A DNA stretch of 64,000 bases from a bacterium (GTDB lineage: Bacteria > SZUA-79 > Acidulodesulfobacterales > Acidulodesulfobacteraceae): the NCBI GenBank assembly GCA_027318865.1, contig DAHVOJ010000002.1:16986-80985 (forward strand). The letters run 5' to 3'. Below are positions 2,897-53,111 of the stretch, piece by piece. The notes beneath the pieces were generated by a model. It did not search any database. It worked only from the letters and a program-made list of their open reading frames with translations, and had not been told where the DNA came from. Made by a program: the position numbers and the translations under genes. The stretch's first letter is position 1. Each line of letters opens with the position of its first letter.

Positions 2897-5800
2897 TTAA
2901 ATAATATTCAAGTAGCGGGGCAACGGTTTTGATTTTAAAATGGCTTTATCAACTGCAATATTTTCTCCGAGGATAATATTATAGCCTGAAATTTTTAATA
3001 TTACCCTGGTGCCTCCTCTCGCGCCCGAAAGGCTGTTTTTTATTTCGGACAGCATATTTTTAAATTCGCTGCCGTCAAGCATAAAGACATTTTCTTGTAT
3101 TTCTAAAATACATGTTTCTTCCGCCGGTTTTACAGCCTGCACGACTTTAACCGCGTCTAAAAGCTCTATGCTTTCGCCTATAATTTTTATGCCTGAATCC
3201 GTATCTCCATTAGCCGAACCGTATTCGGAACTTCCGGCGGAATTCTTATCGTCCGGCTTATCTGCATAGCTTTCCGCGGAATACCCTTCCTGCAAATCCG
3301 AGCCGCCCGGCGTATTGACGGCTGACGCCTGCGCAATGGTCAGGTCTAAGCCCGAAAAATCTATTTTCCCCGTAACGATTACAGGCTGGTTCGTCGATAA
3401 AACATCTTCATATTTTAAGAAATTTTTCGGAAAAAAAACCGTTTCTACGTTTGAATTTTTATCGTTCAATATAAACGATGCCATTTTATCGTTATTTCTC
3501 GTTTTATGCACTTTAAGCTGATTTATTACGCCGGCAAGTTTATATAAAGCGTCTGGAGCGGTTTTGCCTTTTGAGTCTATATATTCGGATACGATATCGG
3601 CAACGGGCCTTATTTTAAGAAGTTTTATTTTTTCTTCATAACCGTCTAAAGGATGACCGGACAGATAGAAACCAAGCGATTCTTTTTCAAAAGCAAGGAT
3701 AGATTTTTTATCGTCCTTTTCCCCCGTGAGCATTAAATAAGACTCGTCTTTTCCGTCGTCATAATTAATATCTCCGCCGAACGACGCAAATAAATCCGCC
3801 TGTCCCGAATCTTCTTTTTCTCTTTTACGGACGGATTCTTCCATTACCGCCTCAAGGTTGTCGAGCATCCATTTTCTCGATTCTCCGCCGATATCTAAAG
3901 CTCCGCTTTTTATAAGGTTTTCTATAGTTCTCTTATTGACTTTTCTCGTATCGACCCTCGAGCAAAAATCAAACAAATTTTTGAAAGATTTATTCGTGCG
4001 TACCTGCAAAATAGAATCTATAGCCGCTTTTCCCACGTTTTTAACGGCTCCCAGACCGGTTCTTATAGCTAATTTCCCTTTGTTTTCGGCATCTTCTTTG
4101 TTTTTATTTTCAAAAGTTTCTCCGCGACATCTTTTTTCTACTATAGCAAATCTTTCCGCAGATTCGTTAACCGACGGCGGCAGTATCTCGCATGCGTTAA
4201 CGCCTGATTTTGCTTCGTTTATTATTTTTGCTAATTTATCGGTGTTCGACATTTCGCTCGATAAAAGAGCCGCCGTGAAATGTTCCTTGTAATTGGCTTT
4301 TAAATATGCCGTCATATATGCAATATAGGCATAAGCGGTCGAATGCGATTTATTAAAACCGTATTCGCCAAATTTTACTATAAGGGAAAAAATTTTTCCC
4401 GATTTTGCCGCTTCTATGCCGTTTGCCTTACAGCCGGCAATAAATTTGTCTTTCATCCGGTTAATAAGTTCCGCCTGTTTCTTGCCGACGCCTTTTCTTA
4501 AAACATCCGCCTCTCCCATAGAAAACCCCGCAAGATTGGTGGCTACTTTCATTATCTGTTCCTGATAAAGCATCACTCCGTATGTGTCCTGCAAAATATC
4601 CTTAAGGGACGGATGAATATAATGTATTCTGGCCTTGCCGTGCTTCGCCTTAATGAAATCGTCAACCATGCCGCTGCCGAGCGGTCCCGGTCTATACAGC
4701 GCTACAAGAGGTATTAAATCTTCGAACGAGTTCGGAACGAGTTTTTTTATCAATTCTTTCATACCCGAACTTTCGAGCTGAAAAACTCCGGTGGTATCGC
4801 CTGCCGCCAAAAGTTTAAACGTCGTCCTGTCGTTTAAGTCTATATCGTATATATTAAACGTTCCCCGACCGCGGTCCCTTCCCGAATTTTCCGCTCCTGT
4901 ATCGTTTATAAGCCTTATGGCTTCGTTCATTACCGTAAGGGTTTTTAATCCCAGAAAGTCGAACTTGATAAATCCCAATTTTTCCAGATCGGTTCCGGTG
5001 TACTGCGTAGTAATAACATCCGTTTCTTTGGTGCCTTTATACAGGGGCATGTAATTATGAATAGGTTCGTTCGATATAACCACTCCGGCGGCATGCGTGC
5101 TTGCATGCCTTGCAAGTCCCTCTAATCTTTTTGCTATTTCTATTAATTTTTTTACCTTAGGGTCAGTTTCTATTAAACCGCGAAGTTTAGGTTCTTCTTT
5201 GACAGCGTTATCTAAAGTAATGCCGGGGGTATTCGGAACAAGTTTCGCTATTTTATCGACTTCCGCATAAGGCATATTTAACGCCCTTCCGGTATCCCTT
5301 ATTACGGCTTTTGCAAGCATAGTCCCAAACGTTATTATCTGCGATACCTGTTCTTCCCCGTACTTATGGGCTACATATTTAATTACCTCGTCCCTTCCGT
5401 TTATACAGAAGTCCGAGTCTATATCGGGCATACTTATTCTTTCGGGATTAAGAAACCTTTCGAACATCAAATCGTATTTAATAGGGTCTATTTCCGTGAT
5501 TTTCAAGCAGTAGGCGGCTAAACTTCCCGCCGCCGAACCCCTGCCCGGTCCTACCGGAATATTGCGTTCTTTTGCATATTTTATAAAATCCGAAACTATT
5601 AAAAAATATCCGGCAAAATTGGATTTTTTAATTACGTCTATTTCCATATCCAATCTTGCTTTATATTCTTCTGTTCTGTTTAAGTAGGATTCTGCGGCGG
5701 CTTTTGTGGGATTTTTTATAAAGGCTTCTTCGAACCCTTCTCTTGTTTTTTGTTCAAAATAATCTGCGACGTCCGAACCTGCAACCTGTAAATCCACCGC

Positions 5801-6766
5801 CGTTCTTTCCGTTATCGTTCCTTCCGTTACTGTTTCTATGATACGAGTATCTGCCGCGGTCCTGCCTGTTCCGGCTTTTTTAAGCATTCCACGTTCGTCC
5901 TCCGGCTTAAACTGAGGGAAATAATGCCCGCCTTTTAACTTGAACGAAAAATTGCATTTATCTGCTATCAGTAAAGTATTGGATATCGATTCCGCCGGAT
6001 AACCGCTAAAAATTTCTTTCATTTCTTCCTGCGACCTGAAATACAAGTCTTTGGTAGAAAACTTTAATCTGTCTTTATCCTCTACCGTTTTTCCGGTCTG
6101 TATGCAAAGAAGTACGTCGTGGGCTTCGTAGTCTTCTTTAAGAAGATAATGACAGTCGTTAGTAGCCACTAAAGGCACCCCGTATTTTTTAGACAATTCG
6201 ATAAGTCCGTTGTTTGCGGCAAGCTGTTCTTCCATTCCCTGAACCTGCATCTCTAAATAAAAATCGTCTTTAAAAATATCTAAGTAAAACTTAAGGCTTT
6301 CTTCGGCGGTATCATATTTCCCGCGGACGATCTCATAAGGTATTTCCCCTTTAATACAGGCGGACATAGCGATTAAACCTTCGCTATGGTCTTTTAAAAT
6401 ATTTTTATCTATTCTCGGTTTATAATAAAATCCGTCTATATATGATTTCGACACCAATTTAGAAAGGTTGCGGTAACCTTCGTCGTTTTTTGCAAGAAGT
6501 ATCAGGTGACTATAAAATTTTTCGTTTGCGTTTTTCAGCTTCATATCGGATTTAGAAATATACATTTCACATCCGATTATAGGCTTTACGCCTTTTTCTA
6601 CGGCTTTTTCATAAAATTCTATTGCTCCGAACATATTCCCATGGTCGGTTACCGCGACAGACGGCATATTAAATTCGATAGCTTTATTTACGACATCGTC
6701 GATTTTAATAGCGCCGTCTAAAAGACTGTAATGCGAATGTAGATGCAGATGAACGAATCCGCTCAT
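2897..6766 (-). CDS. dnaE: DNA polymerase III subunit alpha
   Basis: PHP N-terminus (FVHLHLHSHYSLLDGA), GPGRGSAAGSLAAYCL, PDIDSDFC, YQEQIMKVA; 1289 aa. Confidence 0.97.
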   Translation of the reverse strand: MSGFVHLHLHSHYSLLDGAIKIDDVVNKAIEFNMPSVAVTDHGNMFGAIEFYEKAVEKGVKPIIGCEMYISKSDMKLKNANEKFYSHLILLAKNDEGYRNLSKLVSKSYIDGFYYKPRIDKNILKDHSEGLIAMSACIKGEIPYEIVRGKYDTAEESLKFYLDIFKDDFYLEMQVQGMEEQLAANNGLIELSKKYGVPLVATNDCHYLLKEDYEAHDVLLCIQTGKTVEDKDRLKFSTKDLYFRSQEEMKEIFSGYPAESISNTLLIADKCNFSFKLKGGHYFPQFKPEDERGMLKKAGTGRTAADTRIIETVTEGTITERTAVDLQVAGSDVADYFEQKTREGFEEAFIKNPTKAAAESYLNRTEEYKARLDMEIDVIKKSNFAGYFLIVSDFIKYAKERNIPVGPGRGSAAGSLAAYCLKITEIDPIKYDLMFERFLNPERISMPDIDSDFCINGRDEVIKYVAHKYGEEQVSQIITFGTMLAKAVIRDTGRALNMPYAEVDKIAKLVPNTPGITLDNAVKEEPKLRGLIETDPKVKKLIEIAKRLEGLARHASTHAAGVVISNEPIHNYMPLYKGTKETDVITTQYTGTDLEKLGFIKFDFLGLKTLTVMNEAIRLINDTGAENSGRDRGRGTFNIYDIDLNDRTTFKLLAAGDTTGVFQLESSGMKELIKKLVPNSFEDLIPLVALYRPGPLGSGMVDDFIKAKHGKARIHYIHPSLKDILQDTYGVMLYQEQIMKVATNLAGFSMGEADVLRKGVGKKQAELINRMKDKFIAGCKANGIEAAKSGKIFSLIVKFGEYGFNKSHSTAYAYIAYMTAYLKANYKEHFTAALLSSEMSNTDKLAKIINEAKSGVNACEILPPSVNESAERFAIVEKRCRGETFENKNKEDAENKGKLAIRTGLGAVKNVGKAAIDSILQVRTNKSFKNLFDFCSRVDTRKVNKRTIENLIKSGALDIGGESRKWMLDNLEAVMEESVRKREKEDSGQADLFASFGGDINYDDGKDESYLMLTGEKDDKKSILAFEKESLGFYLSGHPLDGYEEKIKLLKIRPVADIVSEYIDSKGKTAPDALYKLAGVINQLKVHKTRNNDKMASFILNDKNSNVETVFFPKNFLKYEDVLSTNQPVIVTGKIDFSGLDLTIAQASAVNTPGGSDLQEGYSAESYADKPDDKNSAGSSEYGSANGDTDSGIKIIGESIELLDAVKVVQAVKPAEETCILEIQENVFMLDGSEFKNMLSEIKNSLSGARGGTRVILKISGYNIILGENIAVDKAILKSKPLPRYLNII

Positions 6767-6781
6767 AATTTTACTCCTTTC

Positions 6782-8323
6782 TTACTCCCATTCTATCGTC
6801 GAAGGCGGTTTAGAGGTAATATCGTAAACCACCCTGTTTATTCCTTTTATTTCGGAAATTATCCTCGAAGAACATATCCTTAAGATATCGTAATCGAGTT
6901 TTGCAAAATCAGCCGTCATTCCGTCCGCGGAAGTTACCGCGCGAAGCGCTACGACCGATTCGTAGCTCCTTTTGTCTCCCATTACCCCTACCGTTTTTAC
7001 GGGAACAAGCACCGGAAAAGACTGCCATACTTGAGCGTATAATCCTGCCGCCCTTATCTCTTCGGTTACTATCGCATCGGCTTTTCTTAAAATATCGAGC
7101 CGCCTTTTATCTACTTCCCCGATTATTCTTATAGCCAGTCCCGGTCCCGGAAACGGCTGCCTGTTGATTATTTCGTCCGGAATTCCTAAATTTTTTCCTA
7201 TTATGCGGACTTCGTCCTTAAATAATTCCCTTAAAGGTTCGATTAATTTTAAATTTAATTTTTTCGGAAGACCGCCTACGTTATGATGGCTCTTAATGAT
7301 GCTCGAAGCTCCGAATACCTTGACGGATTCGATAACGTCGGGATAAAGGGTTCCCTGAACCAAAAAATTCACGCCTTTGAGCTGCTTTGCTTCTTTTTCG
7401 AATATTTTTATAAAAAGCTTTCCTATAATTTTACGCTTTCTTTCAGGGTCGGTTACACCCTTAAGTTCCTTTAAAAACAAAGCCGAAGCATCCACGAGTT
7501 TTACTTTAAGATTAAGGTTTTCTTTATAATACTTCATAACGGATTTTGCTTCCGCTCCTCTTAAAAGCCCGTTATCTACAAATATGCACTTAAGATTGCC
7601 GCCGATAGCCTTGTTGGTAATAACCGCCGCTACGGTAGAATCTACCCCTCCCGAAAGAGCGCATATAGCTTTTGCTCCACCCGTTTTTTCCTTTATTTCC
7701 CTAACTTTATCGGATATAAAGTCTTCCAGTTCCCAGTCGCCTTTAACGCCGGCTATACCGAATAAGAAATTATTCAATATATCGGCGCCGCATTCCGTAT
7801 GAACGACTTCGGGATGGAACTGAAGCCCGTACATTTTTTTTTCGGGACATTCAAACGCCGCCGTATCGCAGGTCCCGGTCTGCGCCGTTATTTTAAAACC
7901 CTGCGGCATTTTTACGATGACGTCGCCGTGGCTCATCCAGACGAGGCTTGACTTTTCACACCCTTTTAAAAGACCGCTCTTACCGGTTATTTCAAGTTTA
8001 GAATACCCGTATTCCCTGTTTTTGGCGGGTTTGACTTCTCCGCCCAGAAGATGCGCCATAATCTGCATGCCGTAGCATATGCCGAGAAAAGGAATATTTA
8101 ATTCAAATAAATCTTTAGATATTACGGGAGCGTTTTTGTCGTAAACCGAAGAAGGTCCTCCCGAAAGTATAACGGCGTCGGCATTATACTCTTTTATTTT
8201 GCTTAACGGCGAATTAAAAGGATATATCTCGCAATAAACCTTGCTTTCCCTGATTTTTCTAGCTATAAGCTGTGTATATTGCGAACCGAAATCGATTATC
8301 AGTATTTTAGAATGTATTCCCAT
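6782..8323 (-). CDS. guaA: GMP synthase (glutamine-hydrolysing)
   Basis: Class I amidotransferase ([11 protein letters not shown]), [15 protein letters not shown]-terminal [13 protein letters not shown]. Confidence 0.98.
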
Positions 8324-8326
8324 TGA

Positions 8327-9805
<1,479 letters not shown>

Positions 9806-24297: not shown

Positions 24298-24383
24298 TGC
24301 TTGGTTCCCCTCTTCTTTATATTTTTATGCAAATTGTATTTATTATAATACATCGTTCAGGTTTTGTCTATATTTTTACAGTT

Positions 24384-24549
24384 CCCAAAATTGCCGATAG
24401 AAAATTATTTTTCTGGATTCCTGCTTACGCAGGAATGACTTCGCAGGTTTTAAGGTCTTCACCCAACGGGTGTCATTCCCGCGTAGGCGGGAATCCAGTA
24501 TTTATTTAACTTTAAAGCCATTTTAATGGTTTCTATCGGCAATTTTGGG
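24384..24549. mobile_element. MITE-like element: perfect 20-bp terminal inverted repeats enclosing two inverted dRS3-like palindromes
   Basis: Left TIR CCCAAAATTGCCGATAGAAA (24384-24403), right TIR TTTCTATCGGCAATTTTGGG (24530-24549), exact reverse complements. Confidence 0.7.
24413..24498. repeat. Inverted pair of 27-bp dRS3-like repeats, CTGGATTCC[T/C]GC[T/C]TACGC[A/G]GGAATGAC
   Basis: Copies at 24413-24439 and 24472-24498 (reverse complement) differ at 3 positions; right copy contains ATTCCC-N8-GGGAAT. Confidence 0.85.
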
Positions 24550-24589
24550 GGGCGCGTTTCGAATCCGCCCGACTCTATTTTTATAATTT

Positions 24590-53039: not shown

Positions 53040-53111
53040 AATCGTATAAATATAAACCGTTTAATTTATTAATCTATCCATAGCCATTCCCGCATAGGCG
53101 GAAACCTGCGC

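Follow-up and report, generated by a model that had tools for sequence, protein, structure and literature searches.

In the window (the whole 64,000-nt stretch of DNA that was analysed), an inserted 166-bp sequence lies in the gap separating two minus-strand genes, one for an acetyltransferase and one for a rhodanese. This raises the question of what kind of element it is, which transposase could have moved it, and how the palindromes in its interior relate to its ends. The preferred answer, with a probability of roughly 0.88, is a non-autonomous IS1380-family MITE whose cargo is a pair of CGTC-type REPs, with a core that has been exchanged among classes of ends. Copy number, TIRs, TSDs, the empty site, the class-A ISs of relatives, the shared core and the hybrid ends were read from sequence comparison.

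Anatomy of the element and its REP pair

Features of the element and its immediate flanks were assigned as follows.

24342-24370, minus strand: upstream of the rhodanese gene, a putative sigma-70-like promoter, TAGACA-17-TATAAT (11/12 consensus matches)
24384-24549, plus strand: complete 166-bp MITE with TIR-A at both ends (direct sequence reading and genome copies)
24384-24403, plus strand: left TIR-A, CCCAAAATTGCCGATAGAAA; its tip also occurs on the IS1380-A element in L115, at the end distal to the transposase
24404-24412, no strand: short AT-rich arm (alignment of elements)
24413-24439, minus strand: REP 1, CGTC-1-like, with 8-bp stem ATTCCTGC/GCAGGAAT, loop of 4 and tail CCA; the tag points to the element centre
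24440-24471, no strand: spacer between the REPs, ending in ACCCAACGGGT and belonging to the shared core (AA/BB/BA alignment)
24472-24498, plus strand: REP 2, with TGTC tag, stem ATTCCCGC, loop of 4 and tail CCA; fits dRS3 ATTCCC-N8-GGGAAT
24499-24529, no strand: long AT-rich arm (alignment of elements)
24530-24549, minus strand: right TIR-A, matching the left TIR perfectly in inverted orientation (direct sequence reading)
24550-24577, plus strand: right flank of the insertion, which can also be recognised where relatives G009 and G011 have the empty site

The first-pass annotation had described perfect 20-bp TIRs around two inverted 27-bp palindromes, and this was borne out: the two ends are exact reverse complements, the palindromes (CTGGATTCCTGCTTACGCAGGAATGAC at 24413-24439 and GTCATTCCCGCGTAGGCGGGAATCCAG at 24472-24498) are mutually inverted, and ACCCAACGGGT lies at 24461-24471. 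The size and ends are those of a MITE (length about 70-300 bp, TIRs perfect or nearly so), no ORF of at least 90 aa was found inside the element, and 166 bp is too short for a transposase gene. Folded as a single strand, the element reached −82.6 kcal/mol versus −36.4 ± 4.0 kcal/mol for shuffled sequences (z = −11.5). The palindrome pattern gave 61 matches versus 0 in controls, and the TIR pattern, allowing up to 3 mismatches, gave 41 matches in the element's own genome versus 1 for the reversed control. Given this fold and these matches far above controls, the structure of the element is not due to chance.

The palindromes had also been likened to dRS3; the match is exact in REP 2 only, as REP 1 reads ATTCCT...AGGAAT. 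The interior is a head-to-head dimer of CGTC-type REPs. Using the class definition in a survey of such repeats (PMC3733652), both palindromes fit CGTC-1, which includes Neisseria dRS3, in their 8-bp stem starting with AT, 4-nt loop, GTC-type tag, CCA tail and head-to-head dimer arrangement. Neither tag is CGTC itself: REP 2 has TGTC, listed in that survey as a common variant, and REP 1 has AGTC, which is not listed there. The GTC-type tags distinguish the pair from REPIN/RAYT systems, in which a GTAG-tagged REP pair is accompanied by a RAYT transposase. Neisserial intergenic mosaic elements are organised as dRS3-RS-dRS3; likened by description, they share inverted dRS3-like palindromes flanking a spacer, but that description is without IS-type TIRs or TSD. 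The CGTC-1 dimers of Halothiobacillus neapolitanus are set in 41-bp palindromes, where outer inverted repeats likewise enclose a REP dimer; the passage on them (PMC3733652) mentions neither a TSD nor a transposase, and no alternative outer repeats. Unlike the CGTC-1 REPs described in that survey, the REPs here lie inside MITEs that bear TIRs and TSDs. QMITE2 of Coxiella burnetii (PMC5896051) is also a MITE (150-190 bp) containing a REP, but its REP is of the GTAG class and its direct repeats are 7-11 nt, whereas the present element has a CGTC dimer and IS1380 ends. Elsewhere in the window, a palindrome at 53086-53105 has 3 mismatches to the REP pattern and is perhaps a decayed REP.

Copies, target duplications and the insertion site

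The element is dispersed and multicopy, as the definition of a MITE requires. In its own genome assembly (1.46 Mb, 121 contigs, 87% complete), a DNA search recovered seven full-length copies identical over 166/166 bp, the window copy counted, and two full-length copies at 99% on contig C25, together with several half copies cut short where a contig stops, as well as relatives that are more divergent. One stretch of that contig (L041, G000 C25:9000-27000) has three MITE copies with starts 4035 bp apart; the first interval between copies is a 3914-base N run and possibly a scaffolding artefact.

In other genomes, at least 101 stretches contain the exact TIR. Among the matches listed, carriers include Candidatus Acididesulfobacter diazotrophicus and many MAGs, with Nitrospirae, Aminicenantes and Thermodesulfovibrionales MAGs represented as well. 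In Aminicenantes MAGs (L073, L080, L099, L140 and L147) the same ends surround REP-free elements, of which two have an exact 5-bp duplication, and the ends therefore range well beyond the window's own lineage. No exact TIR was found in viral contigs and no match to the 166-bp sequence among phages and plasmids, and a phage or plasmid origin was rejected on these grounds.

Target duplications were scored over all fetched loci. Among 82 distinct elements with class-A ends (those of the window copy) on both sides, 41 had an exact 5-bp TSD and 8 more a 6-bp TSD, versus about 0.8 expected by chance; about 60% of class-A elements therefore have a TSD and about 40% have no exact 5- or 6-bp one. Five own-genome copies read by eye have the 5-bp duplications GCGAT, CAAGT, TATTG, CTAAA and TCAGG. 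The window copy itself belongs to the remainder, with flanks ACAGTT (left) and GGGCGC (right) and no TSD.

The orthologous site is empty in two relatives, G009 and G011 (G009 reads TTTGTCTATACTGTGC GGGCGCGTTTCG), and in G001 it is occupied by a related hybrid element. Flanking genes are 94-97% identical among G001, G009 and G011 and 79-86% identical between these and the window. Because G001 has a hybrid at the site while its nearest relatives are empty, the site has either an old insertion, lost in G009 and G011, with the window copy later homogenised to its siblings, or two separate hits.

Insertion is mostly intergenic: among the 41 elements that have both a duplication and long flanks, 37 lie outside any ORF of at least 100 aa in the joined empty site, and the cost to neighbouring genes would probably be low. 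At the window locus the putative promoter is intact, 13 bp from the MITE, and much the same sequence is present at the empty sites of relatives; its assignment is a consensus match and not proof of function. The 28 bp adjoining the MITE (24550-24577, GGGCGCGTTTCGAATCCGCCCGACTCTA) resemble the 3' end of a tRNA gene, and another tRNA-3'-like stretch occupies the same gap in G013 (L168). ARAGORN found no tRNA at the insertion site, and a tRNA there was rejected.

A strong fold beside a promoter-like site could also be expected if the rhodanese or acetyltransferase gene had a conserved leader, terminator or structured RNA here, and a unique sequence conserved in this way in relatives was what the first-pass annotation had set against a mobile element. 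The many copies elsewhere, the orthologous site empty in two relatives, the lack of a terminator-like site, and an Rfam search of the element in which no family reached threshold make this reading so improbable that it was rejected. A sub-threshold Rfam similarity of window 24400-24514 to FtrB (Francisella sRNA B) scored 27.8 bits, where the gathering score is 66, and may reflect the palindromes only.

Class-A ends and IS1380 transposases

The first-pass annotation had called for a transposase with matching TIRs, and such a partner was identified in sister species, where TIR-A forms the ends of complete IS1380-family ISs (L115/L212, L213 and L214). The class-A IS at L115 4098-5729 is 1632 bp long, has the TSD TTTAC and encloses a 425-aa transposase that scores above the NCBIfam IS1380 cut-off and matches Pfam PF13701 (DDE_Tnp_1_4). 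Relatives of this transposase at 77% identity, also with class-A ends, are in G006 and G002. Class-A ISs have the transposase-proximal tip CTATAATTTG or CTGTAATTTG and the distal tip CCCAAAATTG or close variants. The MITE shares with IS1380-family ISs (NF033539) its 20-bp ends and its 5-bp, in some copies 6-bp, TSDs, but at 166 bp it has no transposase gene and it carries the distal tip (CCCAAAATTG...) at both ends, whereas the IS has a differing proximal tip.

Since TIR-A matches the ends of these complete elements, the MITE was most probably moved in trans by a class-A IS1380 transposase. Its own genome assembly (87% complete, 121 contigs) yielded no intact class-A transposase; the transposases recovered there were a frame-disrupted class-B one and a truncated class-C-like one only. 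The own-genome class-B IS on contig C77 was rejected as a partner, having class-B ends and a broken frame. Candidate autonomous elements at L081 136-1723 and L060 5067-7021 were rejected given that no transposase lies between their TIRs, as were the spans in L146 and L084, which contain ordinary genes. The annotation had offered a non-autonomous transposon with captured dRS3-like repeats or a composite repeat mobilised in trans; each alternative holds in part.

One core behind four classes of ends

The REP-pair core, roughly 80 bp, is common to MITEs with four classes of ends, A to D. Alignment gave the same interior in class-A, class-B (CCCAAATCCCGATTTAGAAA) and B/A hybrid elements, and the cores lacking A or B ends revealed class C (CCTTAATCCTGCAATAGAAA) and class D (CCTTAACTCACCGTTAGAGA). 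Target duplications were found in 23/47 class-BB elements (5-bp, plus 4 of 6 bp), 4/7 class-CC elements (plus 1) and 3/6 class-DD elements (plus 1); shuffling of the (right) flanks gave expectations of 0.5-0.8, and an earlier count across classes gave 40/84, with a maximum of 5 in 2000 shuffles. IS1380-type elements match each set of ends: L115, L213 and L214 for A, L215 and the own-genome element on C77 for B, L221 for C (3 mismatches at each end), and L216 and L226 for D. Against NCBIfam IS1380 (NF033539, cut-off 180 bits) their transposases scored 228 and 211 (A), 291 (B), 189 (C) and 225 (D). They form separate clades that the TIR class tracks, the class-A query sharing 38% identity with B and about 32% with C and D. 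The core common to four TIR classes, the IS1380 family as cognate, and the palindromes as a CGTC-type REP dimer refine the original description of the locus.

Two elements of the element's own genome, L014 (AA) and L024 (BB), agree at 81/82 positions in the core, 39/52 in the long arm and 27/32 in the short arm. In the B/A hybrid of G001 the long arm matches the A arm at 52/54 positions and the short arm matches the B arm at 28/31. This is best read as arm exchange between co-resident MITEs via the shared core, as far as a handful of elements can indicate. The main rival holds that one ancestral MITE diversified vertically, its TIRs co-diverging with four transposase lineages, while gene conversion kept the core and no arms were exchanged. 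Such a history would agree with the common geometry of all four classes (a short arm of 29-34 nt including the TIR and a long arm of 50-55 nt; typically about 30 nt for the short arm, 80 for the core and 53 for the long arm) and with long arms of A, B and C that are weakly alike by eye. Against it stand the 81/82 core identity beside type-specific arms within one genome and the two-class hybrids (B/A in G001, D/A at C77:5613-5810), all of which call for exchange or conversion halting close to the edges of the core; we consider this history rather unlikely.

The TIRs and REPs are separable, with 34 TIR-B matches and no REP in G013, and 7 REPs and no class-A or class-B TIR in G009. REP singletons and dimers also occur in the element's own genome without a surrounding class-A or class-B TIR. 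These REPs outside recognised ends would fit dimers that are mobile by themselves and entered MITEs of different classes independently, but a conserved spacer that includes ACCCAACGGGT, a spacing of 56 bp and a position from the ends that hardly varies point to a single shared core, and independent entry is improbable.

In L045 (G000 C77), the span 5613-8409 begins and ends with MITEs, one with D/A hybrid ends (5613-5810) and one class-A-like (8212-8409), which flank a class-B IS1380 element whose transposase frame is disrupted; both MITEs have the REP core and apparently the same extra insert.

Under the preferred reading of a non-autonomous IS1380-family MITE with exchangeable arms, the 20-bp ends are those of a class-A IS1380-type IS from the same bacterial genus, whose transposase would move or copy the MITE in trans into mostly intergenic sites with a 5-bp (sometimes 6-bp) target duplication. 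The head-to-head REP pair and its conserved spacer would travel as cargo. Arms would be swapped between classes, most simply by recombination of co-resident copies within the repeated core, and REPs with no known transposase of their own would thereby be carried by several IS1380 transposases. A broader proposal, which we offer tentatively, is that the REP-dimer core is an exchangeable module to which recombination in the palindromes repeatedly brings new arms, giving access to at least four IS1380 transposases and accounting for the spread of CGTC REPs.

Literature searches for MITEs of the IS1380 family and for transposases linked to CGTC REPs returned only PMC3733652 and PMC5896051 as relevant, and a paper on the order Acidulodesulfobacterales has no mention of transposable elements. 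MITEs, and a REP within a MITE for the GTAG class (QMITE2), are already known; a shared core behind four sets of ends was not found described in the literature searched. According to the 2013 survey (PMC3733652), no transposase had been found associated with CGTC-type REPs, the class that includes dRS3, and their spread was left open, with a broad range of transposases suggested. Here CGTC REP dimers lie within elements that have TIRs, TSDs and named transposase partners, with one core behind four sets of ends, and the question of how CGTC REPs spread therefore becomes directly testable. The shared core would offer a MITE a modular way to switch transposase, and it suggests how such palindromes may spread without a transposase of their own.
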